This document shows positions 39,818-64,000 of a stretch of DNA of 64,000 nucleotides, one piece after another; within the stretch, counting starts at the first letter, position 1, and every line of letters starts with the position of its first letter. The DNA comes from Catellatospora methionotrophica (lineage in GTDB: Bacteria; Actinomycetota; Actinomycetes; Mycobacteriales; Micromonosporaceae), in the NCBI RefSeq assembly GCF_011297335.1, contig NZ_JAAOTJ010000001.1, positions 1,364,001-1,428,000 of the forward strand. Direction: 5' to 3'. A program made the translations under genes and the position numbers. The notes below the pieces were generated by a model. That model was not told where the DNA came from and did no database searches. It worked only from the letters and a program-made list of their open reading frames with translations.

Positions 39818-40537
39818 ATGAGCGAAGCGCGGCTGCGGCCCGTAGACCTGGCGCGCGGGCAGGGGCTGTCCACGCAGGCCGTCCGCAACTACGAGGAGGC
39901 GGGCATCCTCCCGCCGGCGGCGCGCACCCCGACCGGCTACCGCGTCTACACGCCGCTGCACGCCCGCGCGCTGCGTACGTTCGCCGCGCTGGCCCCCGGG
40001 CACGGCCACCAGACCGCGACGGCGATCATGCGGGCCGTCAACGAGGACGCGCTCGACGACGCCCTCGCGCTGATCGACGACAGCCACCGGCAACTGCGCA
40101 CCGACCGGCACACCCTCACCGCGGTCGAACACGCGCTGCGCGACCTGGCCGCGACCGCGCCGGTCACGCACCGTACCGCCGACACGTTCGTCGGGCCGCT
40201 GGCCCGGCAACTGGGCGTACGCCCCGCGACCCTGCGCAAGTGGGAACGCGCCGGAGTGGTCCGCCCCCGGCGCGATCCGGCGACCGGCTACCGCGTCTAC
40301 ACCCCCGCCGACGTACGCGACGCCCGGCTGGCGCACCAGTTGCGGCGCGGCGGATACCTGCTGGAGCAGATCGCTCTCGTGCTCGACCAGGTGCGGGCCG
40401 CCGGTGGCGTCGCCCCGCTCGACGCGATGCTGCACGACTGGCGCGAACGGCTCGCCTGGCGCGGCCGCGCGATGCTGACCGGAGCCGCCGAACTCGACGC
40501 CTACCTGCGCGAACGCGACGCGTCACCGGCGGCCTGA
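39818..40537 (+). CDS. MerR-family regulator with two DNA-binding domains
   Basis: A 239-residue regulator containing two complete winged-helix MerR headpieces. The first is at the N-terminus ('LSTQAVRNYEEAGILPPAAR', 'GYRVYTPLHARALRTF'), the second near residues 125-185 ('GVRPATLRKWERAGVVRPRR', 'GYRVYTPADVRDARLAHQLR'). A helical linker lies between them. This tandem layout is that of TioE-like regulators found beside actinomycete resistance genes. It is divergent from the erythromycin-esterase gene, with a 13-base dyad in a 19-base-spaced promoter between them, so autoregulation and control of the esterase are likely. Confidence 0.88.
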   Translation: MSEARLRPVDLARGQGLSTQAVRNYEEAGILPPAARTPTGYRVYTPLHARALRTFAALAPGHGHQTATAIMRAVNEDALDDALALIDDSHRQLRTDRHTLTAVEHALRDLAATAPVTHRTADTFVGPLARQLGVRPATLRKWERAGVVRPRRDPATGYRVYTPADVRDARLAHQLRRGGYLLEQIALVLDQVRAAGGVAPLDAMLHDWRERLAWRGRAMLTGAAELDAYLRERDASPAA

Positions 40538-46530: not shown

Positions 46531-46557
46531 GGTGGTGCTCCTTTCACGGACGGAGAC

Positions 46558-46589
46558 GGTCCGGGCGGGCGGGGCTGCCCGCCCGGACC
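46558..46589 (-). terminator. Hairpin between the two lectin-tailed genes
   Basis: Perfect 13-base arms (46558-46570, 46577-46589) and a 6-base loop, 7 bases after the stop of the sugar-dehydrogenase gene and 27 bases before the ThuA start. It would terminate or attenuate read-through between the genes. Confidence 0.75.
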
Positions 46590-46596
46590 TGGTCGA

Positions 46597-50222: not shown

Positions 50223-51149
50223 TCAGCGGTACGGCATCTTCGGGAACCAGCCGTAGCCGAACATGGCGGGCAGGCGCACGTCCCAGTAGACGACGGTGAA
50301 CACGCCCAGGGCGATGAGCAGCGCGCCGGTCACCGCCGCGGTGCGCGCCGGGCTGGCCGTCAGCCAGCGTACGAACCCGCCCCTGGTCGCTACCACCAGC
50401 AGCGCGAACAGCGCCGCCACCAGCACGATGTTGCCCAGCGACTGCAGCACGAACGCGCCCGCGCCGTACAGCGGGTTGCCGGTGTCGACGGCCCAGTGGA
50501 ACAGCTTGTTGAACAGCGGGTACGGCCGACCGACCAGGAAGCCGCCGACCAGCGCGCCCAGCGTCACCACCCGCGCGGCGGGCCGGTGGGCGAACGGGTC
50601 GCGCAGCACCCCGAGCGCGGCCAGGCCGAGGTAGACGAAGGCCAGCCCGATGACGCCGAATGCGACCATCGACTGGATCAGGCGCACCGGCAGCCCGCCG
50701 ACGACCTCGGTCGACAGCTGCGGGAGGCGGTCGCCGAGCAGCACGCCGACGAAGCCGTACGTGGCCGACACGGCGACCATGCCCAGGGTGAGCCAGCCGA
50801 CCGGGCGCAGCAGGCCGCGCAGCCCGGCCCGGGTGGCCCCACCGGCCTGGGTCATCGGCCCGACCGAGGCGGCCATGGCGATGTTGCAGGCGGTGAAGGT
50901 GCCCGCCAGCCCCGACACGAACGCGAACACCAGCCCGGCGACGGTGCCGCCGATCGCGGTCGCCTTGGCGTCGTGGCCGAGCAGGGTGTTCGCGACGTTG
51001 TCGCCGATGACGTGGTCGACGAACTCGTAGGACCAGAGCACGGCCAGCGCCACGCCGGCCAGCACGCTGACGACGATCAGGCCGGTTCGCGAGCGGGGCG
51101 GCTCGGCTGCGGAGGGCACGGCACGGGAGGTTTGTTCAGTCATGGACAT
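50223..51149 (-). CDS. Polytopic membrane protein, CcdA/LysE-like in character
   Basis: A 308-residue integral membrane protein with about seven hydrophobic segments. 'FVSGLAGTFTACNIAMAASV' is a glycine-rich helix with a single Cys, reminiscent of the CcdA/DsbD transmembrane fold but without a Pro-Cys-Pro motif. 'GFLVGRPYPLFNKLFHWAVD' is a conserved-looking loop. A role in electron or small-molecule transport is possible but not shown. The start is uncertain: ATG 51149, ATG 51143 and a TTG at 51176 are in frame, and none has a good ribosome binding site. Confidence 0.65.
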   Translation of the reverse strand: MSMTEQTSRAVPSAAEPPRSRTGLIVVSVLAGVALAVLWSYEFVDHVIGDNVANTLLGHDAKATAIGGTVAGLVFAFVSGLAGTFTACNIAMAASVGPMTQAGGATRAGLRGLLRPVGWLTLGMVAVSATYGFVGVLLGDRLPQLSTEVVGGLPVRLIQSMVAFGVIGLAFVYLGLAALGVLRDPFAHRPAARVVTLGALVGGFLVGRPYPLFNKLFHWAVDTGNPLYGAGAFVLQSLGNIVLVAALFALLVVATRGGFVRWLTASPARTAAVTGALLIALGVFTVVYWDVRLPAMFGYGWFPKMPYR

Positions 51150-51355: not shown

Positions 51356-52153
51356 ATGCTGCTCGCGAACAAGAACGCCGTCGTCTACGGCGGCGGCGGA
51401 GCCATCGGCGGCGCCGTGGCCCGTGCCTTCGCCCAGGAGGGCGCGACCGTGTACCTGGCCGGGCGCACCCGGTCGAAGCTGGAGGCCGTCGCCGAGGCGA
51501 TCCGGGCCGACGGCGGGGCCGCCGAGGTCGCCGAGGTCGACGCGCTGGACGAGCAGGCGGTCGGCGACCACGCCGACCTGATGGCCAAGGCCGCGGGCTC
51601 GATCGACATCGCGCTCAACGCCGTCGGCATCATGCACGTGCAGGGCACGCCGCTGGCGGAGCTGTCGCTGGAGGACTTCCTGCACCCGATCACCGCCTAC
51701 ACCCGGGCGCAGTTCGTGACGGCGAAGGCCGTGTCACGGCACATGACCAGGCAGGGCTCCGGGGTGATCCTGTCGCTGTCGACGCCCGGCTCGAAGCTGC
51801 CCGGACCGGGCTTCCTCGGGTTCGGGGTGACCTGCGCGGCGATCGAGGCGACGTCCCGGCTGCTGGCCGGTGAACTGGGCGGCAGCGGCGTACGCGTGGT
51901 GTGCCTGCGCCCCGACGCCGTGCCGCAGGCGATCGCGGCCGGGTCGTACAGCCGCGACGTGTTCGAGCCGATCGCCGCGCGGGCCGGGGTGCCGCTGGAC
52001 GACATGCTCGCCGGGGCGGCGGGAAACACGCTGCTCAAGCGCCTGCCGACGCTGGACGACGTGGCCAACATGGCGGTGTTCCTGGCGTCGGACCGGGCGG
52101 CCGCGGTCACCGGCACCGTCGCGAACATGACCTGCGGCTCGCTGGTCGACTGA
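51356..52153 (+). CDS. Short-chain dehydrogenase/reductase-like protein lacking the Tyr-Lys pair
   Basis: A 265-residue Rossmann protein preceded by a GAGGAAGAG ribosome binding site. The nucleotide-binding loop is 'VVYGGGGAIGGAVARAF', the 'LAGRTRSKLEAV' strand favours NADP(H), and 'ALNAVGIMHV' replaces NNAG. Where YxxxK is expected the sequence reads 'FLGFGVTCAAIEATSRLLAG', so neither the catalytic Tyr nor Lys is present at its usual place; 'VILSLSTPGS' retains the Ser region. It may be a non-catalytic homologue or use another mechanism. It sits at the left border of the tailoring region and converges on the epoxide hydrolase. Confidence 0.85.
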   Translation: MLLANKNAVVYGGGGAIGGAVARAFAQEGATVYLAGRTRSKLEAVAEAIRADGGAAEVAEVDALDEQAVGDHADLMAKAAGSIDIALNAVGIMHVQGTPLAELSLEDFLHPITAYTRAQFVTAKAVSRHMTRQGSGVILSLSTPGSKLPGPGFLGFGVTCAAIEATSRLLAGELGGSGVRVVCLRPDAVPQAIAAGSYSRDVFEPIAARAGVPLDDMLAGAAGNTLLKRLPTLDDVANMAVFLASDRAAAVTGTVANMTCGSLVD

Positions 52154-52159
52154 ACGGCA

Positions 52160-52203
52160 CGCGCGGGTGGGCCGGCTCATGCGGAGCCTGGCCCACCCGC
52201 GCG
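52160..52203. terminator. Bidirectional terminator between SDR and epoxide hydrolase genes
   Basis: Perfect 14-base arms (52160-52173 and 52190-52203) with a 16-base loop, between the converging stops. Confidence 0.75.
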
Positions 52204-52209
52204 TCCGCG

Positions 52210-53382
52210 TCAGGAGGCCGCGAACTCCGGCCGCAGGGACCGGTAGAACAGCCGCACGTCGTGGGTGAACAGGTCCGGCTCCTCCATGGCGAAGAAGTGG
52301 CTGCCCCGGTCGTACTCGGCCCAGTGGCTGATGGTCGGCAGATCGCGCTCGGCGAAACGGCGCACCGGCGGGGTGACGTCGGGCTTGGCGACCGCGACGC
52401 CGATCGGCACCGTCATCACGTCGCGCGGGCCGGGCATGAACCAGCGGCGCAGGTAGGTGCCGGAGTCGTAGTACAGCTGCGCCGAGGACCCGGCGGTGCC
52501 GGTGAGCCAGTAGAACATCACGTTGGTGAGCAGCAGGTCCCGGTCGATGGCGTCCTCGGGCGCGCCGTTCGAGTCGGTCCACTCCTTGAACTTCTCCATG
52601 ATCCAGGCGAGCTGGCCGACCGGTGAGTCGTGCAGGCCGTACGCGACGGTCAGCGGCCGGGTGCCCTGGACCTGGGCGTAGCCGGACAGCTCGGCGTGGT
52701 AGCGGGCGAGCCGCCCGATCCGGATGCGGTCGGTGGCCGACAGCCCGGCCAGCTCCGCCGGGTCGCCCGACGGCGGGGTCAGCAGCAGGTTGACGTGTAC
52801 GCCGGTGACCTGGCGGGGGGCGATACGGCCCATCTCCAGCGAGATGAACGAGCCCCAGTCACCGCCCTGCACGCCGTACTCCTCGTAGCCCAGGCGGCTC
52901 ATCAGCTCGACCCAGGCGCGGGCGACCCGCGGGATGTCCCAGCCGGTCTGGGCCAGCGGGCCGGAGAAGCCGTGGCCGGGGATCGACGGGATGATCAGGT
53001 GGAACGCGTCGGCGGCGTCGCCGCCGTGGGCGACCGGGTCGGTCAGCGGGCCGATGGCGTCCAGGAACTCCACGATCGAGCCGGGCCAGCCGTGGGTCAG
53101 CACCAGCGGCATCGCGTCGGGCTCGGGCGAGCGCACGTGCATGAAGTGCACGTTGGCCCCGTCGATGCGGGTGATGAACTGCGCGTACTGGTTGATCCGT
53201 TCCTCGGCCTTGCGCCAGTCGTAGGTGGTGTGCCAGTACTCGGCGAGGTCCTTGAGGTAGTCCAGCGGGATGCCGCGGCTCCAGCCCACGCCCGCCGGTT
53301 CGGACGGCCACCGGGTCTGCGCGATCCGCTGGCGCAGCGTGTCCAGCTCGGCCTGCGGGATGTCGATACGGAACGGGTACAT
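52210..53382 (-). CDS. Epoxide hydrolase of the EHN / SgcF-NcsF2 type
   Basis: A 390-residue alpha/beta hydrolase with the N-terminal EHN lid domain ('[20 protein letters not shown]'). The oxyanion motif is '[12 protein letters not shown]', the nucleophile Asp lies in '[16 protein letters not shown]', and the His region is '[16 protein letters not shown]'. Enzymes with this exact layout open vicinal-diol precursors in the enediyne pathways of C-1027, neocarzinostatin and kedarcidin; others are general epoxide hydrolases. Here a flavin epoxidase-like gene lies 5 kb away. It follows the flavin monooxygenase gene by 15 bases in the same direction. Confidence 0.88.
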
Positions 53383-53397
53383 CGCCCTGCCTCTCGC

Positions 53398-54582
53398 TCA
53401 GATGAAGGGGGTGTTGGGCGCCAGGTCGCACAGCACGCGGCCGTACACCTCGGCGGTGGTGTTCGGGTGCATCAGGGCGTGCAGGTTCATGGTCTGCACG
53501 TCGCGTTCGATGCGCTGCATCGGCACCGTGCTGAACACCGACGAGCCGCCGCTGGCCGTGTTGAGGATGTCGACGGCCGACTTGACCAGCTGGAAGGCGC
53601 GGCCGGTGCTGGCGCGGGTGCGGACCCGCTCCTCGATCGTCCAGGTGTCGCCGCTGGCGTCCTTGCCGTCGAGCAGGTCGGCGATGCGCCGGGCGTGGAA
53701 GTCGGCCTCGTCGATGAGCAGGCTCGCCTGGGCCAGCTGCAGGTGCGTCAGCGGGGCGTGGCGCTGGCTCTCGTAGTCCGTGTAGGTGATCTTCCGGCCG
53801 GGCAGGCGCTCCAGGAAGTTGTCCATCGCCGAGCGGGCGATGCCGACCGCGCTGCCGACGAAGGAGGCGCACCCGACCGGCATCAGCGGCGCGCGGAAGA
53901 CCGGCGAGGCGGCGTTGAGCTGCGAGGCGTACTGCTCCTGCAGCACCAGCGGCACGGGCAGCACCCGGGCGGCGGGCACGAACACGTCGTTGGCGACCGT
54001 GGTGACGCTGCCGGTGCCGCGCAGGCCGGCGGTGCGCCAGTCGTCCTGGATCTCCAGGTCGGCCATCGGCACCATGGCCAGCACCGGCATCTGCTGCACG
54101 CCGTCGGGCGCGGGCGCCATCGCGACGATGACCTGCCACTGGCTGTGCAGCGCGCCGCTGACGAAGTGCCAGCTGCCGTTGACGACGTAGCCGCCGTTGC
54201 GGGGCTCGGCGACCGCGGTGGGGCTGAGCACGCCGCACACCCGTACGTCGGGGGTGGCGAAGACCTCGTCCTGGACCTCGTCGGCGAACATGCACGCCAT
54301 CCAGGTGCAGGTGAACCAGACGCCGACGTTCCAGGCCGTGGAGGACTCGCCCTGGCCGACGGCCGCGCCGACCGCGACCATGGTCGCCGCGTCGCTCTCC
54401 AGGCCGCCGTAGCGGGCCGGGACCCGCATCCGGAACACCCCGGCGTCGGCCAGCGCCTCGATCGACTCGGGGTGCAGACGGCGGTTCTCCTCGGTCCACA
54501 AAGCGTGCGCGCGCAGCAGTGGCTGCAGCCGCGTGACGCGTTCGACCAGCTCGTTACGTGGTGGTGCGGCAGTGATCGACAC
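53398..54582 (-). CDS. Acyl-CoA-dehydrogenase-fold flavin monooxygenase, paralogue 1
   Basis: A 394-residue group-D flavin-dependent monooxygenase (DszC/HpaB-like fold). 'ADAGVFRMRVPARYGGLESD', 'VNGSWHFVSGALHSQWQVIV', 'LRGTGSVTTVANDVFVPAAR' and 'GRVLCDLAPNTPFI' at the end are typical. It lacks the acyl-CoA-dehydrogenase catalytic Glu context, so it more likely uses reduced FMN or FAD from a separate reductase to hydroxylate an aromatic or polyketide substrate. It is clearly paralogous to the gene at 59703-60878. No flavin reductase is seen in the window. Confidence 0.85.
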   Translation of the reverse strand: MSITAAPPRNELVERVTRLQPLLRAHALWTEENRRLHPESIEALADAGVFRMRVPARYGGLESDAATMVAVGAAVGQGESSTAWNVGVWFTCTWMACMFADEVQDEVFATPDVRVCGVLSPTAVAEPRNGGYVVNGSWHFVSGALHSQWQVIVAMAPAPDGVQQMPVLAMVPMADLEIQDDWRTAGLRGTGSVTTVANDVFVPAARVLPVPLVLQEQYASQLNAASPVFRAPLMPVGCASFVGSAVGIARSAMDNFLERLPGRKITYTDYESQRHAPLTHLQLAQASLLIDEADFHARRIADLLDGKDASGDTWTIEERVRTRASTGRAFQLVKSAVDILNTASGGSSVFSTVPMQRIERDVQTMNLHALMHPNTTAEVYGRVLCDLAPNTPFI

Positions 54583-54626
54583 CTGTCTCCTCCTAGAGCG
54601 TCAGCGGCCTGGGCCAGACATGAGAA

Positions 54627-54648
54627 TGCCGCCCGCGAGCGGGCGGCA
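54627..54648 (-). terminator. Hairpin downstream of the exporter gene
   Basis: Nine-base arms (54627-54635, 54640-54648) with a CGAG loop, 59 bases after the exporter stop and 44 bases before the monooxygenase start. An outer 8-base inverted pair, cctagagc (54592-54599) and gctctagg (54662-54669), brackets it. Confidence 0.6.
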
Positions 54649-54707
54649 CATCTCTTAAATTGCTCTAGGTCGATGTTCCGTTAAGCCGTGCGGTGTGCCT
54701 GCCGGGC

Positions 54708-56189
54708 TCACTCCCCCGCCTGGGCGTGCACCGGCGCGCCGGTACGCGGTGCGGGCACGTCCTCGGCGGCGGGCGCGGCCGGGGACGCGGCGGGGCGGTT
54801 GGCGCGCAGCAGCAGCGCCACGGCCAGGCCGAGCACCGCGAACACGACGCAGGCGATGAACGCGGCCCGGAAGCCGTCGTTGATCGCGACCGTGCCGGTG
54901 GCCGCACCGGTCACCGAGGCCGCGACGGTGGAGCAGATGGCCACGCCGAGCGCGCCGCCGATCTGGAAGCCCGCGCTGTTGATGCCGGAGGCCAGGCCCG
55001 CCTCGTCGGCGGCGACGCCGGTCTGCGAGGCGATGGTGGCGGCGACGTAGCAGCCGCCCAGGCCCGGCCCGAACACCAGCAGCGGGATCAGGATGTCGCC
55101 GAGGTAGCTGCCGTCCGGCGAGATCCGCGACAGCAGCAGGCAGCCGATGCCCAGCAGCGTCATCGCCCCGGCCGCGACGGGCTTGAAGCCGACCCGGGTC
55201 ACCAGCGCCTGCCCGACGGCCGAGCCGAAGACCGTCATCACGGTCATGACGGCCATGCCCAGGCCGAAGATCAGGGCGCTGTAGCCGAGGACCTGCTGGG
55301 CGTACAGCGACACGAGCAGGCCCATCCCGAAACCGATCATGCCCAGCAGCAGCATCACGATGTTGCCGCCGACCAGGGTGCCGTTGCGGAAGATGCGCAG
55401 CGGGACCAGCGGCGCGGCCGAGCGCGTCTCCACCCAGGCGAAGATCGCGAACACCACGATCGACGCGGCGATCAGGCCCAGGGTCTGCGCGCTGAGCCAG
55501 CCGGCGTCAGGTGCCTCGACCACGGCGTAGACGAGCAGCACCAGGGCGAGCGTGACGGTGATGGCCCCCGCGATGTCGAAGGCGTTGCGGCGCTCGCCCC
55601 TGCTCTCGCGCAGCAGCACCGGGCCGAGGCCGAGCAGGATCAGCGCGATCGGCACGTTCAGGAAGAAGATCCACTCCCAGCCGAGCAGGTCGTTGATCGG
55701 GCCGCCGACCAGCAGCGCGGCGGTCGCGCCGAAGCCCGCGATGCCGGACCAGATGCCCAGGGCCTTGTTGCGCTCGCTACCCTCGTCGAACGTGGTGACC
55801 AGGATCGACAGCGCGGTCGGGGCCATCACGGCGGCGGAGGCGCCCTGGAGCGTACGGGCCGCGATCAGGACCTCGCCCGTCCACGCCAGCCCGCACAGCA
55901 CCGAGGCGAGCAGGAACATGGTGGTGCCGATGAAGAACATCCGGCGGCGGCCGAGCAGGTCGGCCATGCGGCCGCCGAGCATCAGGAGGCCGCCGAAGGT
56001 GAGCAGGTAGGCGCTGAGCACCCACTGCTCGCTGCCAGAGGTGAAGCCGAGGTCCTGCTCGATGGACGGGATGGCCAGCAGCACGATCTGCGCGTCGAGG
56101 TTCACGACGAACATGGCCACGCACAGCAAGGCCAGGGCTTTCCAGCGCCGCGGATCGGGCACGGCGCGGTCGGGCTCGGACGAGCTCAT
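54708..56189 (-). CDS. DHA2-family MFS drug/natural-product exporter
   Basis: A 493-residue transporter with 14 predicted membrane segments (EmrB/QacA type, 14-TMS). 'FVVNLDAQIVLLAIPSIEQD' carries the DHA2 motif D1 region, 'YLLTFGGLLMLGGRMADLLG' and 'GRRRMFFIGTTMFLLASVLC' motif A, and 'GPINDLLGWEWIFFLNVPI' motif C. A strong AAAGGAG site precedes the ATG. Members of this group export antibiotics in producing strains, including enediynes (for example SgcB). It is divergently arranged with an HxlR regulator, with a palindrome overlapping both promoters, which is a usual ligand-induced efflux circuit. Confidence 0.9.
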   Translation of the reverse strand: MSSSEPDRAVPDPRRWKALALLCVAMFVVNLDAQIVLLAIPSIEQDLGFTSGSEQWVLSAYLLTFGGLLMLGGRMADLLGRRRMFFIGTTMFLLASVLCGLAWTGEVLIAARTLQGASAAVMAPTALSILVTTFDEGSERNKALGIWSGIAGFGATAALLVGGPINDLLGWEWIFFLNVPIALILLGLGPVLLRESRGERRNAFDIAGAITVTLALVLLVYAVVEAPDAGWLSAQTLGLIAASIVVFAIFAWVETRSAAPLVPLRIFRNGTLVGGNIVMLLLGMIGFGMGLLVSLYAQQVLGYSALIFGLGMAVMTVMTVFGSAVGQALVTRVGFKPVAAGAMTLLGIGCLLLSRISPDGSYLGDILIPLLVFGPGLGGCYVAATIASQTGVAADEAGLASGINSAGFQIGGALGVAICSTVAASVTGAATGTVAINDGFRAAFIACVVFAVLGLAVALLLRANRPAASPAAPAAEDVPAPRTGAPVHAQAGE

Positions 56190-56271
56190 GGTGATCTCCT
56201 TTGGCGACGGTCACCGGGCGACCGGCGGACGTGGCAGTGGGCGCGCGGTCTCCAGGCAGGCTTGCAGCCAT

Positions 56272-56308
56272 GGTTGTCTATGACAACCGGCCAGGGGGAA
56301 TCTATAAT
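56272..56308 (+). promoter_or_regulatory. Divergent promoter and HxlR operator
   Basis: On the plus strand ATGACA (56280-56285) and TATAAT (56303-56308) are separated by 17 bases, a near-perfect sigma-70 promoter for the hxlR-type gene. The -35 box is inside a perfect palindrome, GGTTGTC-TAT-GACAACC (56272-56288). On the opposite strand TTGTTT and TATAGA boxes with a 16-base spacer (between 56302 and 56330) can serve the exporter. A half-site, acaacc, recurs at 56325-56330. Confidence 0.7.
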
Positions 56309-56375
56309 CATCTAGTAGTAAAAAACAACCAATGAGGTCGGGCAAGCCATCGAACGCGGGATACCATGGGCGCTC

Positions 56376-57062
56376 ATGGGAACCAGACGCAGCTATCACG
56401 ACGCGTGCGGCGCGGCACGCGCCCTGGACGTGGTCGGTGAGCGCTGGGCGCTGCTGGTGGTCCGCGAGCTGCTGCTCGGCCCGAAGCGGTTCACCGACCT
56501 GCGCCACGGCCTGCCCGCCGTCAGCGCGAACATCCTGGCCCAGCGCCTGACCGAGCTGGAGGACGCCGGGGTCGTCGGCCGCCGCCGCCTGCCGCCGCCC
56601 GCGGCCTCGGCGGTGTACGAGCTGACCGCCTGGGGCGCCGAGCTGGAGGAGATCATCCTGAAGCTGGGCGCATGGGGTGCCCGCTCGCCGCTGCCCGATC
56701 CGAACGCGACGCTGAGCGTCGACTCGCTGATCCTGTCGTTCCGGACGCTGTTCCAGCCCGCCCGCAGCGCGGGCCTGCACGCCGACGTGCAGCTCGACTT
56801 CGCCGACGACCTGTTCCACGCCGTGGTCGACGACGGCACGCTGCGGATCGGCCGCGGGCAGGCCACCACCGCCCAGTCCACGATCTGCACCACCCCGGAC
56901 GTCCTGGCCGGGGTGGTGTACCAGCAGCACAGCCTGCCCGACGCGATGCGCGACGGCAGCGTGCGGATAACCGGGGACCAGCGGATGGGCAGGCGCTTCA
57001 TGACCTTGTTCGCACTGCCCATCCCGGCCCCCACCGCCGCGGAGCTCAGCGCCGGCCGGTGA
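56376..57062 (+). CDS. HxlR-family regulator with C-terminal SCP2-like domain
   Basis: A 228-residue protein. The N-terminal HxlR winged helix is clear: 'ACGAARALDVVGERWALLVV', 'RELLLGPKRFTDLRHGLPAV', 'SANILAQRLTELEDAGVVGR'. The C-terminal 110 residues ('ADVQLDFADDLFHAVVDDGT', 'DQRMGRRFMTLFALP') look like a sterol-carrier (SCP2)-type ligand-binding fold, known in some actinobacterial HxlR proteins. It probably senses a hydrophobic metabolite and controls the divergent exporter through the palindrome at 56272-56288. Its 3' end overlaps the convergent P450 gene by 17 bases. Confidence 0.88.
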   Translation: MGTRRSYHDACGAARALDVVGERWALLVVRELLLGPKRFTDLRHGLPAVSANILAQRLTELEDAGVVGRRRLPPPAASAVYELTAWGAELEEIILKLGAWGARSPLPDPNATLSVDSLILSFRTLFQPARSAGLHADVQLDFADDLFHAVVDDGTLRIGRGQATTAQSTICTTPDVLAGVVYQQHSLPDAMRDGSVRITGDQRMGRRFMTLFALPIPAPTAAELSAGR

Positions 57063-58275
57063 GCCGGACCGGCAGCTCCTTGCGGCCGTTCATGATGAAG
57101 GTGCCCTGCGGCTCGACCGCGTCGGACGCGACGGCCAGCTCCAGATCCGGGAACCGCTCGAACAGCGCGGGCAGCGCCAGCTCCATCTCCAGCATGGCCA
57201 GCGGCGCGCCGATGCAGCGGTAGAGCCCGTGACCGAACGACAGGTGCGACTTGTCGGCCCGCTCGGGGTCGAACCGCGCCGCCGTCGGGCCGTGCTTGAC
57301 CGGGTCGCGCCCGATCCCGGCGAACCCGATCAGCACCGGGTCACCCTTGGGGATGACGGTGTCGCCTACCTTCACGTCCTCGACCGGGAAGCGGAACGGC
57401 AGGTGCGCCACCGGCGCCTCGACCCGCAGCGTCTCCTCGATCACCTGTGCCCAGCTGACCGCGCCCGACCGGGCGCGGGCCAGCTGCTCCGGCTGCGACA
57501 GCAGCACGTGCGCCGCGTTGACGATCAGGTTCATCACCGGCTCGGTCCCGGTCGCCAGCAGCAGGAACAGCGTGCCGACCAGCTCCGAGTCGGACAGCCT
57601 GCCGCCGTCCTCCTCCTGGGCGGCCAGCAGGTCGGTGGTCAGGTCGTCGCCGGGCGAGCGGCGCTTGTCCGCGACGAAGCCGTGCATCATGGTGTGCCAC
57701 TGCTCGATGTTCTCGGCGACCTCCTCGGGGGTCAGCGTCGTGTCGACGTTGAGCTCGCCGCCGCGCAGCATCGCGGCGCGCTGGTGCGCCGGGACGCCGA
57801 ACAGGTCGCAGATGACCCGGGACGGGAACGGGTGCGCGAACCGGGCCTTGAGGTCGATCACCTCGCCCGCCGGGACCTGCGCCAGCTCGTCGAGCAGGGT
57901 CTGCGCGACCGCCTCGACCTTGGACCGCATCGCCTCGACCCGCCGCATGGTGAACGCCTTGGCGGTCAGCCGCCGCAGCCGCGAGTGGTCGGGGCCGTAC
58001 GCCGTGGTCATGTTGTCCATCAGCGCCCAGCCGATGAGCGGGAAGTCCTGGCCGATCTCGCCGTTGGCGAACGCGGTCCAGTGCTTGCGCGGGTCCTTGG
58101 AGAAGCGGCTGTCGGCCAGCGCCTGCAGGGCCTCGTCGTAGCCCACGATGGACCAGGCGAGCACGTCGCCGGGCAAGACCACCTGGGACACGGGTCCGTT
58201 GGCGCGGATGCGCGCCGCCTCGGCGTGCACGTCCGCGCCGGTGCGGTCGATGTGGTACGGGCAGGTCGGTTCCAT
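57046..58275 (-). CDS. Cytochrome P450 (class I bacterial type)
   Basis: A 409-residue soluble P450 that needs external ferredoxin and reductase. The heme loop is 'LSFGHGLYRCIGAPLAMLEM' with the proximal Cys near 353; the usual His before Cys-2 is Tyr. The ExxR helix reads 'VIEETLRVEAPV'. The I-helix is 'LFLLLATGTEPVMNLIVNAA', which lacks the common (A/G)GxxT acid-alcohol pair and has Thr-Glu instead, so oxygen activation may differ. A GGAGG ribosome binding site precedes the ATG. It follows the FAD enzyme gene by 18 bases and is probably a tailoring hydroxylase or epoxidase of the same pathway. Confidence 0.9.
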   Translation of the reverse strand: MEPTCPYHIDRTGADVHAEAARIRANGPVSQVVLPGDVLAWSIVGYDEALQALADSRFSKDPRKHWTAFANGEIGQDFPLIGWALMDNMTTAYGPDHSRLRRLTAKAFTMRRVEAMRSKVEAVAQTLLDELAQVPAGEVIDLKARFAHPFPSRVICDLFGVPAHQRAAMLRGGELNVDTTLTPEEVAENIEQWHTMMHGFVADKRRSPGDDLTTDLLAAQEEDGGRLSDSELVGTLFLLLATGTEPVMNLIVNAAHVLLSQPEQLARARSGAVSWAQVIEETLRVEAPVAHLPFRFPVEDVKVGDTVIPKGDPVLIGFAGIGRDPVKHGPTAARFDPERADKSHLSFGHGLYRCIGAPLAMLEMELALPALFERFPDLELAVASDAVEPQGTFIMNGRKELPVRLTGRR

Positions 58276-58293
58276 GGATACCTCCGATCGGTC

Positions 58294-59676
58294 TTAAGCG
58301 GACGGGTCCAGGACGGCGGCCGGCGCCTGCGGGCCCGGCTGCTCCCTACGGCCCGAGTGGCGCAGCACCTTGAGCACCGTGCTGGGGCGGAACAGCCGCT
58401 GCGGCGGGTCGATGAGCCCCGCCGTGCGGAAGAAGGCATTGGTGACCTCGCCGTCGTGCACGGCGGCGGCCTGCACCCTGGCCATGTAGGCGTTGGCGAC
58501 GCGGGTCTTGAGCGAGCGGCGTCCGGGCACCTCGGGGTAGCCCAGGTCCGCGCCCGCCGACACCTCCCACGGCGCGTCGATGTCGCGGGAGATGTCGGCG
58601 AAGAACTCCACCGCCCGCGGCTCGTGGCCGCGTTCCAGGTGCCTGCGCAGGGTCAGCGACTCCAGCGCCGCCACCGTCATGCCCTGGCCGTAGACCGGAT
58701 TGAAGCTGCACACCGCGTCGCCCATCACCAGATACCCCTGCGGGAACCTGGTCAGCCGGTCGTAGCGCTTGCGCACGCTGGCCGGGAACCCGAACATGAT
58801 CGGCTGGTCGACGGGTTCGGCGTCGCGGATCGCGGCGTACACCTCGGGAACCGGCAGCGACCGGGCGAAGGCGAGGAAGCCCTCCTGGTCGGTCGGCGGG
58901 TGATCGCCGAGCACGCCGGTCAGCGACAGCTCGACCCGGTTGTCGTCGCCGGGCAGGCGGTAGAAGAACCCGCCGCGCGGGTGCGACGGCGTCGCGACCG
59001 GGATGATCGCGATGTCGTCGCCGAACGGGTCGCTCTGCAGCTGGAAGTGCTGCGTCGTGTACGCCAGACCAATCTTGACCTTGTCCTCGCCGGGCCGGTC
59101 GTAGCCGTGCTCGGCCAGCCACGGCGGGGTCCGCGAGCCGCGCCCGGTGACGTCGATGACCAGGTCGGTGTCGATCACCTCGTCGGTGAAGGCGTCGTGC
59201 GCCCGCACCCGGGCCCCGGTCACCCGGGAGTCGTCGGCGGAGAACACCAGCCCCAGCACGTCGTGCCGCTCCCGCAGCACCACGTTCGGGATCTTCAGCA
59301 CCCGCTCGCGCAGGTGGAACTCCAGCACCGGCCGGGTCGCGGGCACCGAGACCAGCCCCGACACGGCCTTGCGCAGCTGCCGGCCGTTGAAGTACCAGCG
59401 GATGTCCTCGTTGACGTCGCCGGGCACCACGCCCGCCACCCGCAGCTCCTCTGTCAGACCGGGAAAGTGCTGCTCGAAGATCTGCTGGCCGCGGGCGATG
59501 AGCCCGTGCGCGTGCCCGCCGTGCGGCACGCCCCGCCGGGTCTGCCGGACGCCGCGCACCTCGTCGCGCTCGACCATCACCACCTCGCGGTAGTGCTCCG
59601 ACAGCACCCGGGCCGCGAGCAGCGCTGCCATGCTGCCGCCCAGCAGCAGCACCCGATCACCTATCAGCTTGCCCAT
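58294..59676 (-). CDS. FAD-dependent epoxidase/monooxygenase-like enzyme
   Basis: A 460-residue flavoprotein. A dinucleotide-binding strand 'VLLLGGSMAALLAARVLSEH' (GGSMAA rather than GxGxxG), 'RRGVPHGGHAHGLIARGQQI' and the second FAD motif 'GYLVMGDAVCSFNPVYGQGM' place it near flavin epoxidases such as MonCI and Lsd18, and squalene-epoxidase-like monooxygenases. These epoxidise isolated double bonds. Pairing with the epoxide hydrolase at 52210-53382 would convert an alkene to a diol. A GGGAGG site precedes the ATG. It lies 26 bases after the flavin monooxygenase gene, in an operon with the P450. Confidence 0.82.
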   Translation of the reverse strand: MGKLIGDRVLLLGGSMAALLAARVLSEHYREVVMVERDEVRGVRQTRRGVPHGGHAHGLIARGQQIFEQHFPGLTEELRVAGVVPGDVNEDIRWYFNGRQLRKAVSGLVSVPATRPVLEFHLRERVLKIPNVVLRERHDVLGLVFSADDSRVTGARVRAHDAFTDEVIDTDLVIDVTGRGSRTPPWLAEHGYDRPGEDKVKIGLAYTTQHFQLQSDPFGDDIAIIPVATPSHPRGGFFYRLPGDDNRVELSLTGVLGDHPPTDQEGFLAFARSLPVPEVYAAIRDAEPVDQPIMFGFPASVRKRYDRLTRFPQGYLVMGDAVCSFNPVYGQGMTVAALESLTLRRHLERGHEPRAVEFFADISRDIDAPWEVSAGADLGYPEVPGRRSLKTRVANAYMARVQAAAVHDGEVTNAFFRTAGLIDPPQRLFRPSTVLKVLRHSGRREQPGPQAPAAVLDPSA

Positions 59677-59702
59677 CGTCGGCCTCCCGGTCCGCCAGGA
59701 GG

Positions 59703-60878
59703 TCAGATGTAGAGGGTGTTGGGTTCGAGGCCGGCCAGGATGCGGCCGTACAGCTCGTAGTTGGTGTCCGGGTGAAGGATCGCGTGCAGGCTCAGCGCCT
59801 CGATGTCGCGGGCGATGCGCTGCAGGGACACCCCGTTGTAGATCGACGACGCGCCGCTGGCCGACTTGAGCGTGTCGATGGAGCCCTTCGCGAGCTCGAC
59901 CATGCGGCCCAGGTCGGCCCGGACCCGCGCCCGCTCCTCCAGCGTCCAGGCCTGTCCGGCCCGGCTCTTGGCGTCCAGGGTCGACGCGGCCCGGTCGGCG
60001 TGGAACTCGGCCTCGTCGAGCTTCAGGACGGCCTCGGCGACCTGCAGGTGGGTCAGCGGCGCCTCGCGCTGGCTCTCGTACGCCGTGTAGGTGATCTTCC
60101 GGCTGGGCAGCCGCTCGAAGAACGCCTCCTTGGCCGCCTGCGCCAGGCCCAGCACGGTGCCCGCGGTGGTGGTGGCCGCGGTGAGCAGCATCGGCGTCCG
60201 GTAGACCGCACTGTCGGCGTTGGCCTTGGACGCGTAGATCTCGTGCAGGACCGGGCCCATCGGCAGCAGGCGGTGCGCCGGGATGAACAGCTCCCGCGCC
60301 GCCGTGGTGACACTGCCGGTGCCGCGCAGGCCGCTGGTGTGCCAGTCGTCGATGATCTGCAGCTCCGAGGTCGGGGCCAGCGCCATCACCGGGGCCATCT
60401 GCCCGTCGGGCATCGGCGCGACAACGATCAGGGAGTTCCAGTCGCTCTGCAGCGCGCCGGTGTTGAACTGCCAGCGGCCGTTGACGACCAGGCCGCCGTC
60501 GGCGGGGGTGCCCATGCCACCGGGGCTGAGCAGGCCGCAGACGCGGGCGTCGGGGTTGGCGAAGACCTCGTCCTGGGCCTCGTCCGGGAACAGGCCGACC
60601 AGCCAGGAGCAGATGCTCCAGACCGACAGGGTCCAGGCGGCGGAGCCGTCACCGCGGCCGACCTGGGTGATGACCTCCTTGACGGTGCTCAGGTCGGCCT
60701 CGTGGCCGCCGTAGCGCTGCGGGGCGCGCATCCGCAGCAGGCCCGCCGTACCGAAAGCCTCGATGATCTCGTCGTGCAGGCGGCGGTTCTCCTCCGACCA
60801 GGCGGCGTGCTTGGCGATGAGCGGGGCGATCTCCGCGGCGCGGGCGACGAGATCCTCGCGCGAAGTGGTGGTGTCCAT
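59703..60878 (-). CDS. Acyl-CoA-dehydrogenase-fold flavin monooxygenase, paralogue 2
   Basis: A 391-residue enzyme from ATG 60878. It is strongly similar along its length to the product of 53398-54582: 'WSEENRRLHDEIIEAFGTAG' against 'WTEENRRLHPESIEALADAG', the shared 'LRGTGSVTT' and 'RKITYT' motifs, and the ending 'YGRILAGLEPNTLYI'. It is likely an FMNH2/FADH2-dependent hydroxylase using a diffusible reduced flavin. First gene of a short operon with the FAD enzyme and P450. The 174 bases upstream hold no promoter I can place; a 12-base palindrome, accgccggcggt, ends at the stop of the preceding gene. Confidence 0.85.
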   Translation of the reverse strand: MDTTTSREDLVARAAEIAPLIAKHAAWSEENRRLHDEIIEAFGTAGLLRMRAPQRYGGHEADLSTVKEVITQVGRGDGSAAWTLSVWSICSWLVGLFPDEAQDEVFANPDARVCGLLSPGGMGTPADGGLVVNGRWQFNTGALQSDWNSLIVVAPMPDGQMAPVMALAPTSELQIIDDWHTSGLRGTGSVTTAARELFIPAHRLLPMGPVLHEIYASKANADSAVYRTPMLLTAATTTAGTVLGLAQAAKEAFFERLPSRKITYTAYESQREAPLTHLQVAEAVLKLDEAEFHADRAASTLDAKSRAGQAWTLEERARVRADLGRMVELAKGSIDTLKSASGASSIYNGVSLQRIARDIEALSLHAILHPDTNYELYGRILAGLEPNTLYI

Positions 60879-61052
60879 GACTGGTGTCCTCCCAGGGCTG
60901 GTCAGCCGCGCATCCATCGACGCTCGGCGCTATAAGACCCTGGCATCCGGCGGTCGTCCGCCGCATCTTCCTAAGTGCTTTGTCTAGGGGCTGACATGCG
61001 CGTTCGTACCGCGGGCGGCCGCGTCGGGCCGTCCGCTGCGCACCGCCGGCGG

Positions 61053-61919
61053 TCAGGACGGCAGGTGCATCGTGCGCTCGAACGCCGGCAGCAGCCACGG
61101 GCGGCGGCCGCCCAGGCGCACCTTGCCGGTCAGCGCCGCGCGGGCCTTGCTCACCCGCCCGAACAGCATCAGATTCAGCGTCGGCGGGTCGAAGGCCAGC
61201 CGCACGTCGGCCCGCGGGTCGGGGTCCTCGACCGTCACCGCCCCGTCGGTGAGCACGAGCATCGCCGGAGTGGTGTACGGCGAGCGGAAGTCCACGGCGA
61301 TGCGGCCGGGCCGCACCGGCGCGCCGTGATCGAGCAGCGCGCCGTAGCCGCCACGGGTGACCCCGAGCAGGAACAGGTCGAAGAACTGGCCCGCCAGCAG
61401 CGGGTCCATCGGCCACGGGGTGCGGGTCGCGCGGGCGATGTCCCAGCCGTGCACCACCAGCTCGTTGATCATGTGGGCGACCAGGCCCGCGATCGTCAGC
61501 CGGGAGCCGCCCAGCCAGCCGACCTGCTCGGACGGGTCGCGGGTGGCGGCGGCCGCGACCAGCTCGTCGGCGTACCAGCGCAGCTGCTCGCACAGCACCG
61601 GCACGTCGCGGCCCGTGAAGTGCGCCAGCACCGCGTGGTTGGTGTCGGCGACGGTGTCCACGTTGGTCGCCGCGACCAGATCAAGCGCGCCCGGCATGTG
61701 CGCGTCCAGGTCGGTGCGCCCGACCAGGACCGCGTCCAGCAGCATCAGGCTGACCAGGTGCGCGACCGTGTCGGCGATGGTCCAGTCGGCGGTCACCCTG
61801 GTCTGCGGCGGATGCGCCGAGGCCAGCGCGATGAGGCGGTCGGTGACCTGCGGCAGCGCGCGGCTGACCAGGTCCCAGGCGGCGGGGTCGACGGGCACGA
61901 TCGGCATGCCCTCCAGCAT
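61053..61919 (-). CDS. Maleylpyruvate-isomerase-family (DinB-like, mycothiol-dependent) protein
   Basis: A 288-residue protein (ATG 61919; an inner ATG at 61907 is possible; the frame open to 62837 is a shadow of the next gene). The N-terminal DinB/MDMPI helical bundle shows 'VTADWTIADTVAHLVSLMLL' and 'LTIAGLVAHMINELVVHGWD' with metal-ligand-like His residues. The C-terminal part ('DVRLAFDPPTLNLMLFGRVS') is the SCP2-like domain common in this group. Family members use mycothiol or metals for isomerisation or conjugation reactions. In this setting it may protect against or modify a reactive intermediate, but that is inference. Confidence 0.8.
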   Translation of the reverse strand: MLEGMPIVPVDPAAWDLVSRALPQVTDRLIALASAHPPQTRVTADWTIADTVAHLVSLMLLDAVLVGRTDLDAHMPGALDLVAATNVDTVADTNHAVLAHFTGRDVPVLCEQLRWYADELVAAAATRDPSEQVGWLGGSRLTIAGLVAHMINELVVHGWDIARATRTPWPMDPLLAGQFFDLFLLGVTRGGYGALLDHGAPVRPGRIAVDFRSPYTTPAMLVLTDGAVTVEDPDPRADVRLAFDPPTLNLMLFGRVSKARAALTGKVRLGGRRPWLLPAFERTMHLPS

Positions 61920-62035
61920 GGGCGGGGGCGCGGCGGGCCCGCATACGCTGGATTGCTCAGTTGCGCGCGAACGGCGGTGGCGCGGAACCCCCAGGCCCGC
62001 ACCACCGCCGCCGCCACCGCTCGGGTGAGGTCGGG

Positions 62036-63058
62036 TCAGCCCGTCGTCGCCGCGGCGGCCGGGACGGCCGGCTTGCCGCGCTCGCGGAACCACTTCATCC
62101 ACCAGTACATGCCGCGGGCGAGGCAGACGAGCGTCACGGCGAAGAACAGGGTGTAGACGATGTTGAACTGCATCAGCACGCCGTACACGATCGCGACGCT
62201 GGAGCCGAACATGAACTGCCACTTGAACGGGCCGGGTGTGGTGCCCGGGTCCGTGATCATGTAGTTGGTGAACAGCACGAACGCCACCCCGGTCATCGGC
62301 GCCAACGCCGCCCACAGCGCGACGTCCCAGACGAAGTGCCGGATCAGTGCCTGGATCACGAACGCGCCCATCCAGCCCATGATCAGGCCGACCTTCTTGG
62401 TCAGCATCGCGTTGAGCACCGTGCCCGCCGTGATGATGATGAGCGGCACCATGATCCGGATGACGTCGGGCACGTTCTCCGTGAAGTGGTACGGCGGCGC
62501 GACGTTGACCCAGGCGAACGCGAGCAGCGTGATGGTGATGCCGAAGTTCGACGGGTTCATGAAGTGCCGCATCCGGCCGTTGATCGGCGCCTGCAGCACG
62601 TACTTCTGCCCCACGGCCACCACCACCGCGAAGGCGATGGGCCAGAACAGGTCGTTGGCGTACAGCAGCATGTTCGCCGCCAGCGCCGTGATGTGGGTGG
62701 GCAGCAGGAACGTGTACAGGCCCCAGACGCCGTTGCCCCGGTACCCGACCGGGCGCTTCTGCGCCCACGCCTGGATGCGCTCGCTGACCAGCTCGGTGCT
62801 GTAACCGACGGCCAGGGCCAGGAACGGCCAGGCCCACGGCTGCTCGAAACCGAGCACGGTGTAGCCGAGGATGTTGAAGATGGACATGGAGATGGCGAAG
62901 TTGCGCAGGGCCTTGTAGCGGGGATCGGCGTTGTCGACCCGGGGGGCCTTGGCCACCGTGGGCATCGTGGTCGCGGGCGTGGCCGCCGGGCGGGCGGCGG
63001 TGGTCACCGGTTTCTTGATGGTGATCGCCGGTGTGGTCACTCTCTCGGCGTGCGTCAT
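62036..63058 (-). CDS. UnbU-like membrane protein (NQR2/RnfD-related)
   Basis: A 340-residue polytopic protein with a Thr/Ala/Pro-rich cytoplasmic N-terminus (about 1-45) and eight or nine membrane helices. 'NGVWGLYTFLLPTHITALAA', 'RMRHFMNPSNFGITITLLAF' and 'FVLFTNYMITDPGTTPGPFK' are conserved with RnfD/NqrB-type proteins; the 'DPGTTP' loop corresponds to the flavin-attachment region. UnbU proteins of this kind are among the accessory genes next to enediyne polyketide synthases. The ATG overlaps the UnbV stop (ATGA), so they are translated together. The biochemical role of UnbU is not established. Confidence 0.82.
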   Translation of the reverse strand: MTHAERVTTPAITIKKPVTTAARPAATPATTMPTVAKAPRVDNADPRYKALRNFAISMSIFNILGYTVLGFEQPWAWPFLALAVGYSTELVSERIQAWAQKRPVGYRGNGVWGLYTFLLPTHITALAANMLLYANDLFWPIAFAVVVAVGQKYVLQAPINGRMRHFMNPSNFGITITLLAFAWVNVAPPYHFTENVPDVIRIMVPLIIITAGTVLNAMLTKKVGLIMGWMGAFVIQALIRHFVWDVALWAALAPMTGVAFVLFTNYMITDPGTTPGPFKWQFMFGSSVAIVYGVLMQFNIVYTLFFAVTLVCLARGMYWWMKWFRERGKPAVPAAAATTG

Positions 63059-64000
63059 CGCGCCGCCACCTCCTGTGCCTTGTCGGTGAGGGTGAGGTCG
63101 TGCCAGCCGGCGGCCAGGTCCAGGCGGCTGCTGTGCGGGTTGCCGTTGAGGTCGCGCCAGCTCAGCTCGACCGACACCGGCTTACCGCCGGCGTTGCCGA
63201 GCCCGAAGAAGACCTCGAAGCTGCGCTTGCCGGAGTGGCCGCCGCCGCCGTCGAGCTGTGCCACGTGGGTGGCCCCGTCGGCGGTGGTCAGCTTCGCCAC
63301 GGCCCCGTAGGCGGGCGTGCCGGGAGCCCCGGCGCCGGTCGTCGGGCGGTACAGGCGCAGGCCCAGGTAGTCGCCGCGCTTGGTGGTGTCGTTGCGGAAG
63401 AACTGCGGCGCGCCCCACTGCCGGGCGATCATCAGATCCTGGTCGCCGTCGTTGTCGACGTCGGCCACGGCGATGCCGCGCGACGGGGTGGGGTCACCCA
63501 GCCCGAGGTCGTCGGCGAGGTTGACGAACTTCTCGCTGCCGTCCTCGCGGACCCAGAAGCCGATCGGCTGGCTGCCGGAGATGTCGTCGCCGGGCATCGC
63601 CTTGGGCCACATGTCCGGCTCCTGCAGCAGCAGGTCGTTGGTCATCGCCAGTTCCTGCAGCCAGTTGAATCGGTTGATGGTGCCCTTGACGAAGCCGCAG
63701 GCCTGCACGACGGCGAGCCGGCCGCTGTTGTCGAAGTCGGCCATCTTGGCGTCCCAGCCCCAGCCGACCCAGGCCATGTTCATCGCGGAGGCCTTGTTCA
63801 CGAACGGCGCGTCGCCGCGCGACATGCGGGCCCTGGCGTCGGCGGCGTCAGCGGCGTCGTTGCGCCACACCATGTTGCTCTCTTCCAGGCCCCACTCGGC
63901 GGTGATGTTGCTGACGAACATGTCGAAACGGCCGGTGCTCGCCAGGTCGCCGAACTCGATCGACATGCCCTTGAACGAGTCGTGGCCCAGGACCAGCGAC
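63055..64000 (-). CDS. UnbV-like CRTAC1/ASPIC protein, 5' end beyond the window
   Basis: The C-terminal 314 or so residues of a larger FG-GAP/ASPIC-UnbV protein; the frame stays open to the window edge, so the start is missing. 'DNSGRLAVVQACGFV' and 'GIAVADVDNDGDQDLMIARQ' are integrin-like calcium-binding repeats. 'GDYLGLRLYRP', 'AYGAVAKLTTADGATHVAQL', 'GGGGHSGKRSFEVFFGLGNA' and 'VELSWRDLNG' form the ASPIC/UnbV domain. Proteins of this type are usually secreted and accompany UnbU in enediyne loci, though CRTAC1 proteins also occur elsewhere. Its stop overlaps the unbU-like start. Confidence 0.85.
   Translation of the reverse strand, partial: SLVLGHDSFKGMSIEFGDLASTGRFDMFVSNITAEWGLEESNMVWRNDAADAADARARMSRGDAPFVNKASAMNMAWVGWGWDAKMADFDNSGRLAVVQACGFVKGTINRFNWLQELAMTNDLLLQEPDMWPKAMPGDDISGSQPIGFWVREDGSEKFVNLADDLGLGDPTPSRGIAVADVDNDGDQDLMIARQWGAPQFFRNDTTKRGDYLGLRLYRPTTGAGAPGTPAYGAVAKLTTADGATHVAQLDGGGGHSGKRSFEVFFGLGNAGGKPVSVELSWRDLNGNPHSSRLDLAAGWHDLTLTDKAQEVAAR

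Follow-up and report, generated by a model that had tools for sequence, protein, structure and literature searches.

A complete-looking gene cluster for a predicted nine-membered enediyne in Catellatospora methionotrophica, and observations on two UnbU/UnbV lineages and an outlying redox block

Introduction

Enediynes are DNA-cutting antitumour antibiotics pursued as antibody-drug payloads. Those of known structure are few; PMC5181780 counts 11, plus 4 aromatised, in 2016. We analysed a stretch of 64,000 nucleotides of Catellatospora methionotrophica (contig NZ_JAAOTJ010000001.1, positions 1,364,001 to 1,428,000; "the window"), at whose right end an earlier sequence-only reading had placed the edge of an enediyne-like cluster. 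The locus raises the question of whether that edge belongs to a real enediyne cluster and, if so, to which type. The host genome comprises 8.39 Mb in 56 contigs, and the reading was extended rightward on the same contig to contig position 1505000; coordinates above 64000 continue the window numbering ("ext"). Our analysis indicates that the right window end is very probably the left flank of a cluster whose genes predict a nine-membered enediyne product. The cluster spans about 44.6 kb and looks complete.

The enediyne core lies beyond the window

The sequence-only reading had expected any polyketide synthase (PKS) to lie beyond 64 kb. An enediyne PKS (PKSE) is indeed found 6.1 kb past the window end, and a thioesterase and two DUF1702 (UnbL-type) genes accompany it on the same contig, within the roughly 40 kb proposed for the search. 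The genes of this part are as follows (all ext).

65357-65962, minus strand, MerR
66789-67601, plus strand, AraC
67786-69147, minus strand, P450 (E7-type)
69144-69689, minus strand, flavin reductase (E6-type); best PDB matches 4r82/4hx6
69692-70141, minus strand, thioesterase (E10, hotdog); PDB 4i4j 252 bits, CalE7 220 bits
70138-75897, minus strand, PKSE of 1919 aa; KS, AT, KR and DH by Pfam
75987-76958, minus strand, first DUF1702 (UnbL-type)
77148-78122, minus strand, second DUF1702 (UnbL-type)
78197-78571, minus strand, small protein
78571-79149, minus strand, orphan g50 of 192 aa
79286-80362, minus strand, CMD-domain protein
80681-81250, plus strand, DUF5987 (E8-type)
81247-82884, plus strand, GMC oxidoreductase (E9-type)
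82965-84038, plus strand, second CMD-domain protein
84035-85648, plus strand, DHA2 MFS, above the EmrB cut-off
85733-86533, plus strand, MDMPI (E11-type)
86670-87092, minus strand, SgcJ/EcaC-family protein; family model 121.5 bits, cut-off 34
87351-88376, plus strand, NAD-epimerase-like
88410-89216, minus strand, short-chain dehydrogenase/reductase (SDR)

The PKSE has the domain makeup KS-AT-ACP-KR-DH, with an ACP matching that of CalE8 (2l9f, E=2.8e-23); of the proposed order KS-AT-KR-DH-PPTase, the first four domains were recovered and the PPTase was not confirmed. The two DUF1702 proteins are of the E2 and E3 types, and the DUF1702/UnbL match to PF08012 reached 1.5e-129. Orphan g50 found no match in Pfam, NCBIfam or PDB.

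We compared the cluster with that of C-1027, as the earlier reading had proposed. Over its length the PKSE shares 65% identity with that of Streptomyces sp. CB02366, a strain for which PMC5181780 reports C-1027 production. The S. globisporus C-1027-type cluster holds homologues of all of E2-E11, the EHN epoxide hydrolase (58%), the MonCI-like epoxidase (59%), the SgcJ-type protein (58%) and one FADH2 monooxygenase, namely the second XiaF-like gene at 59703-60878 (58%). In contrast, its 89-kb contig has no homologue of the other XiaF-like gene, of the SDR or of the flavin, ligase and peptidase genes of the outlying block described below. It also holds an apoprotein gene that the present cluster is without, and its UnbU/UnbV pair belongs to another lineage than ours, which in addition lies downstream of the PKSE.

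According to the same source, all enediynes share E3/E4/E5/E/E10, and nine- or ten-membered cores are marked by E2 or R3 (PMC5181780). In a tree of 44 DUF1702 rows, our second DUF1702 groups with the second copies of CB02366 and S. globisporus in a starred clade of 16 rows. Because one copy thus sits in the E2 clade, the published nine-membered marker, we assign the cluster to the nine-membered type. A ten-membered product, of the calicheamicin or dynemicin type, would share the common core cassette, and a calicheamicin-type cluster (G245, thioesterase 98% identical to CalE7) does share PKSE, thioesterase, UnbU, UnbV and one DUF1702 with ours, its UnbU/UnbV standing directly before the PKSE. 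However, that single DUF1702 falls outside the E2 clade, and no E2 or E6-E9 homologue was detected in 30 kb around the G245 thioesterase. The E2-clade DUF1702 and the E6-E9 and E11 homologues of our cluster, as in the C-1027-type one, make a ten-membered core very improbable.

Closer relatives show the same core in other surroundings. In Catellatospora vulcania the core is collinear with ours (PKSE 78%, UnbU 79%, UnbV 75%), whereas homologues of the epoxidase, the hydrolase and one monooxygenase (49-60%) stand on the other side of the core and the block is on another contig. The PKSE loci of Salinispora mooreana and S. pacifica have a similar core order with UnbU/UnbV downstream (UnbU 70-74%), but their peripheral gene sets differ. 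Enediyne-type PKS clusters of Phytohabitans, described in PMC7692728, are also relatives of the present one. In a wider survey, 144 of 354 Micromonosporaceae genomes gave an enediyne-type thioesterase match at E<=1e-25, and enediyne capacity therefore looks very common in the family.

The left flank and the predicted product

The window itself contributes the following genes.

50223..51119, minus strand, g29, multi-helix membrane protein, proposed left edge
51356..52153, plus strand, SDR; Pfam adh_short_C2 1.3e-35
52210..53382, minus strand, EHN-type epoxide hydrolase (SgcF/NcsF2-like); Pfam EHN PF06441 E=1.9e-41
53398..54501 (alternative start 54582), minus strand, FADH2-dependent monooxygenase, XiaF/HsaA type; PDB 5lvu XiaF 1.4e-45
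54708..56189, minus strand, MFS exporter, DHA2/EmrB-like; Pfam MFS_1 5.4e-48
56430..57062, plus strand, HxlR-type regulator with SCP2-like C-terminus; Pfam HxlR 5.1e-21
57046..58275, minus strand, cytochrome P450; Pfam p450 6.1e-27
58294..59676, minus strand, MonCI/Lsd18-like flavin epoxidase; PDB MonCI 8e-53, Lsd18 4.4e-52
59703..60878, minus strand, second XiaF/HsaA-type FADH2 monooxygenase; PDB XiaF 9.1e-53
61053..61919, minus strand, MDMPI-like (DinB-fold) protein with SCP2-like C-terminus; Pfam MDMPI_N 7.1e-6
62036..63058, minus strand, UnbU (E5-type) membrane protein of 340 aa, RnfD/NqrB fold
63055..65007 (cut by the window at 64000), minus strand, UnbV (E4-type) FG-GAP/ASPIC protein of 650 aa

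The UnbU-UnbV pair, the EHN hydrolase and the P450 named by the sequence-only reading were each borne out by Pfam or homologues. Its "several flavin oxygenases" correspond to the two XiaF/HsaA-type monooxygenases, the first with a below-cut-off NCBIfam HsaA match, and the epoxidase; its "isomerase-family protein" is the gene at 61053-61919, with a mycothiol maleylpyruvate isomerase N-domain. Of the 80 PKSE loci compared, which are the best 80 of 230 relatives, 5 hold a homologue over half the length of that protein. Its DHA2 exporter holds as an MFS gene with DHA2/EmrB the closest models, but the score lies below the curated cut-off (efflux_EmrB, 199 bits against 230). The EHN hydrolase matches PDB entries 5f4z (537 bits) and 4i19 (498 bits).

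We place the left edge at about 50223 rather than at 51356, because g29 has homologues in 23 of the 80 PKSE loci (21 over half its length, identity up to 77%). This protein has no Pfam match above cut-off and none in NCBIfam, and its predicted fold (pLDDT 79.8) found no PDB match at E<=0.001. Relatives of g29 and g50 also occur at loci with a divergent PKSE (42-43% identity: L099; L100 or L101). Membership of the SDR at 51356-52153 is unsure, since only one weak homologue (28%) was found among the 80 loci.

By analogy with other enediynes, the PKSE and thioesterase would make a linear polyene, which the E proteins would convert to the nine-membered core. At this locus the MonCI-like epoxidase may set an epoxide that the EHN hydrolase would open to a diol. 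Oxidation of the core or its periphery could fall to the two P450s and the two FADH2 monooxygenases, with the E6-type flavin reductase as supplier, and the two MFS pumps would export the product. Homologues of the epoxidase (58-59%) lie about 12 kb from the apoprotein genes in both C-1027-type strains. The notion that this epoxidase is special to our cluster was rejected, as 19 of the 20 genomes searched have matches, several of these near a PKSE and two in C-1027-type strains. Four more such genes (35-50% identity) occur in the host genome, on contigs C6, C33 and C7 and at C1:712678.

Family scans of the cluster genes, in which one monooxygenase was scanned with NCBIfam alone, found no glycosyltransferase, non-ribosomal peptide synthetase (NRPS) domain, anthranilate-synthase-like (benzoxazolinate) or aminomutase family. 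A neocarzinostatin-type apoprotein (PF00960) was likewise absent from the cluster, with both C-1027-type strains positive as control. Since the cluster shows no gene for an apoprotein, a sugar, an NRPS or benzoxazolinate, it probably makes a small enediyne that is not bound by a chromoprotein.

Left of the cluster, at 44434-49371, two large adjoining carbohydrate-related proteins look like a separate system; one is a ThuA-ketodisaccharide hydrolase-CBM6-ricin B lectin protein and the other a glucose/sorbosone dehydrogenase-PKD-CBM6-ricin B lectin protein. Further left lie a protein with two MerR-type DNA-binding stretches (39818-40537) and an erythromycin-esterase family protein (38442-39701).

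Weighing the assignment

Several points weigh against a chromoprotein-free, nine-membered enediyne. The sole PF00960 match of the genome, on contig C15:107255-107545 (L094), lies outside the cluster, and its protein has a C-terminal end like a membrane or surface anchor; peripheral genes elsewhere in the genome may also add groups to the product. The PPTase-like C-terminal 220 aa of the PKSE, partly conserved over 81 rows, found no PDB match at E<=1. R3, the ten-membered marker, was without a named reference, although no third DUF1702 was seen among the cluster genes scanned. The E-gene names are provisional: they follow gene order, checked against the C-1027-type locus. UnbU matches no RnfD family in Pfam even at E<=10. 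Finally, the enediyne itself is predicted from genes, and the cluster might instead be decayed or silent and make nothing. This is unlikely: the core genes are long open reading frames whose codon positions are strongly biased, and the ketosynthase motif VDGACSSS, which is conserved across the 81 aligned rows, is intact in the PKSE. A nine-membered enediyne cluster is much the likeliest reading.

UnbU and UnbV form two lineages

Of the 80 PKSE loci, 72 have homologues of both UnbU and UnbV that cover more than half the query; some of the eight loci without UnbU end at contig ends. In 55 of the 72, UnbU ends 63-327 bp before the PKSE, and in the remaining 17 it follows the PKSE at 3.3-8.7 kb, the arrangement seen here. 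The order that the earlier reading had called unusual is thus not out of line with the family.

The earlier reading had also cautioned that such pairs occur outside enediyne loci, and UnbU/UnbV might belong to a redox system foreign to enediynes, placed near a PKS by accident. The predicted RnfD/NqrB fold of UnbU agrees with this, and ASPIC/FG-GAP proteins are widespread. In Micromonosporaceae, however, the caution fails: of 150 evenly drawn genomes, the 48 with a UnbU match at E<=1e-10 are also the 48 with a PKSE ketosynthase match at E<=1e-100, and the UnbV family matched once in the host genome and in none of 14 control genomes. A chance neighbour is hardly credible in view of this distribution, and UnbU/UnbV are better read as part of the enediyne cluster.

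The two proteins probably work together in a single membrane complex, with UnbU as its RnfD/NqrB-like membrane component and UnbV as an exported beta-propeller partner. UnbV matches UnbV_ASPIC (PF07593, 9.6e-10) and FG-GAP_3 (6.9e-19), its N-terminus reads as signal- or anchor-like, and its gene overlaps that of UnbU by 4 bases. UnbU differs from RnfD/NqrB subunits in sequence, with only about 9-13% identity under the predicted common fold, and no Rnf/Nqr partner family (RnfC/G/E/A/B) was seen among the cluster genes scanned. SGAT, the motif of the covalent FMN threonine in RnfD/NqrB, was not read in the UnbU sequence, the equivalent positions being unmapped.

We then compared quick, unrooted trees with SH-aLRT as the only support measure, their rows being the 72 UnbU-bearing loci plus this one, with the eight UnbU-less loci excluded. 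The UnbU tree splits 21 rows (this locus, the 17 "after" loci and three Actinomadura loci) from 52, and the UnbV tree shows the same two-way split with one change. On the PKSE tree, built from the same 73 rows, the UnbU/UnbV labels change four times, all forced by starred branches, compared with a shuffled mean of about 18. Label changes (forced) on other trees were 4 (2) for E3, 10 (1) for the thioesterase, 6 (1) for E6, 3 (2) for E7 and 2 (1) for E9; the PKSE tree alone firmly forces four, and the others are less decisive. Taken together, these phylogenies suggest that UnbU and UnbV fall into two deep lineages, the two genes travelling as a pair and not following the PKSE tree. The single change on the UnbV tree against four forced on the PKSE tree points to occasional exchange of the pair as a unit, seemingly a few times, and the pair appears mostly to follow the host lineage.

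One genome (G081) holds two UnbU/UnbV pairs within about 20 kb, one directly before a PKSE and one of the "downstream" type (L105, L106). A link between lineage and apoprotein was considered and dropped: the "downstream" lineage holds L067, from a genome with an apoprotein-type gene, probably on the PKSE contig.

An outlying redox block at the far edge

The far edge of the cluster (ext 89400-94829; L010:8400-13829) carries a block of redox-related genes.

89400-90968, plus strand, flavin oxidoreductase
90942-91595, minus strand, nitroreductase-family protein
91656-92795, minus strand, YbdK/GCS2 ligase
92911-94023, minus strand, M20 peptidase
94278-94829, plus strand, AhpD-like, often part of the block

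A 67-aa gene called at 90973-91176 (g61) is spurious, the real gene being the nitroreductase-family one on the opposite strand. The ligase matches the NCBIfam glutamate-cysteine ligase model PRK13517.1-1 (412 bits, cut-off 332). The M20 enzyme comes close to models of the glutamate-carboxypeptidase type without reaching their cut-off; the oxidoreductase is weakly similar to the bacillithiol disulfide reductase model and the nitroreductase-family protein is weakly BluB-like.

Block genes at 70-81% identity stand beside UnbV in genomes G112 and G162 (L103, L104), where the PKSE is just 56-57% identical. The ligase (E<=1e-100) was found in 65 of the 354 Micromonosporaceae genomes, in a search scoring five candidates per genome that missed G112, whose copy aligns in two pieces. 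The enediyne thioesterase was present in 62 of these 65, against 144 of 354 overall (Fisher p = 5e-25, relatedness uncorrected). Within Catellatospora, all six thioesterase-positive genomes and none of five negative ones have the ligase. The three ligase-positive, thioesterase-negative exceptions are the weakest matches (51-53%). We examined 20 contexts, 17 from the 62 genomes (L134-L150) and all three exceptions: the oxidoreductase, nitroreductase, ligase and M20 peptidase stood together in all 17 (two of them partial in L146), with the AhpD-like gene in 11 and g29 and g50 in three, whereas the exceptions had the ligase alone. It seems that related bacteria keep the block mainly when able to make enediynes, an association uncorrected for phylogeny.

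In this genome the block is inside the cluster; elsewhere it is mostly away from the PKSE. Of the 62 ligase genes, 17 lie less than 60 kb from the thioesterase (about 13 kb in ten genomes), 26 farther on the same contig and 18 on another contig, with one undetermined. That the block has nothing to do with enediynes and only shares their lineage history has close to an even chance. The 45 ligase genes not seen within 60 kb of the thioesterase agree with such a history, the Fisher value ignores phylogeny, and 82 of the 144 thioesterase-positive genomes have no ligase match. The oxidoreductase, moreover, was found in none of the 14 Streptomyces enediyne genomes tested. These belong to a set of 50 PKSE-positive genomes from named loci, in which it reached at least 61% identity in all 20 Streptosporangiaceae, in 3 of 7 Micromonosporaceae and in 1 of 8 Actinomadura, but not in the single Lentzea; five more genomes had matches of just 47-49%. 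Against this stand the 62 of 65 genomes, the six-to-none split within Catellatospora, the four-gene block in 17 of 17 contexts and in none of the three exceptions, and the ten genomes with about 13 kb between ligase and thioesterase.

The alternative that we put forward tentatively, at somewhat less than an even chance, is that many Micromonosporaceae enediyne producers carry a conserved accessory locus, usually off-cluster and here drawn whole into the cluster, which may act in self-protection against the enediyne or in its late maturation, by redox or glutamyl/thiol chemistry. Lying usually outside the biosynthetic cluster, such a locus would be missed by neighbourhood-based mining. No ligase match was found in the five genomes whose thioesterase is 86-98% identical to CalE7. 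Mutual exclusion of block and apoprotein was considered and is not clear, as the genomes of L031 and L048 hold both a short PF00960 gene and the block oxidoreductase.

Significance

In summary, our results point to a complete-looking, apoprotein-less locus of the nine-membered type in a genus rarely named with enediynes in the literature searched, from which subscription journals mostly fell outside. The nine-membered type and two evolutionary observations, on the UnbU/UnbV lineages and on the outlying block, go beyond what the window alone could show. The deep lineages off the PKSE tree and the redox block tied to enediynes may be new: within that same literature we found no work joining enediyne and RnfD, and only unrelated work for enediyne with cysteine ligase. 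Given the RnfD-like fold predicted for UnbU and its joint inheritance with UnbV, a membrane redox complex becomes an idea that can be tested. If the association of the block with enediynes is true, it would point to self-protection or maturation genes that are invisible to cluster-based mining.

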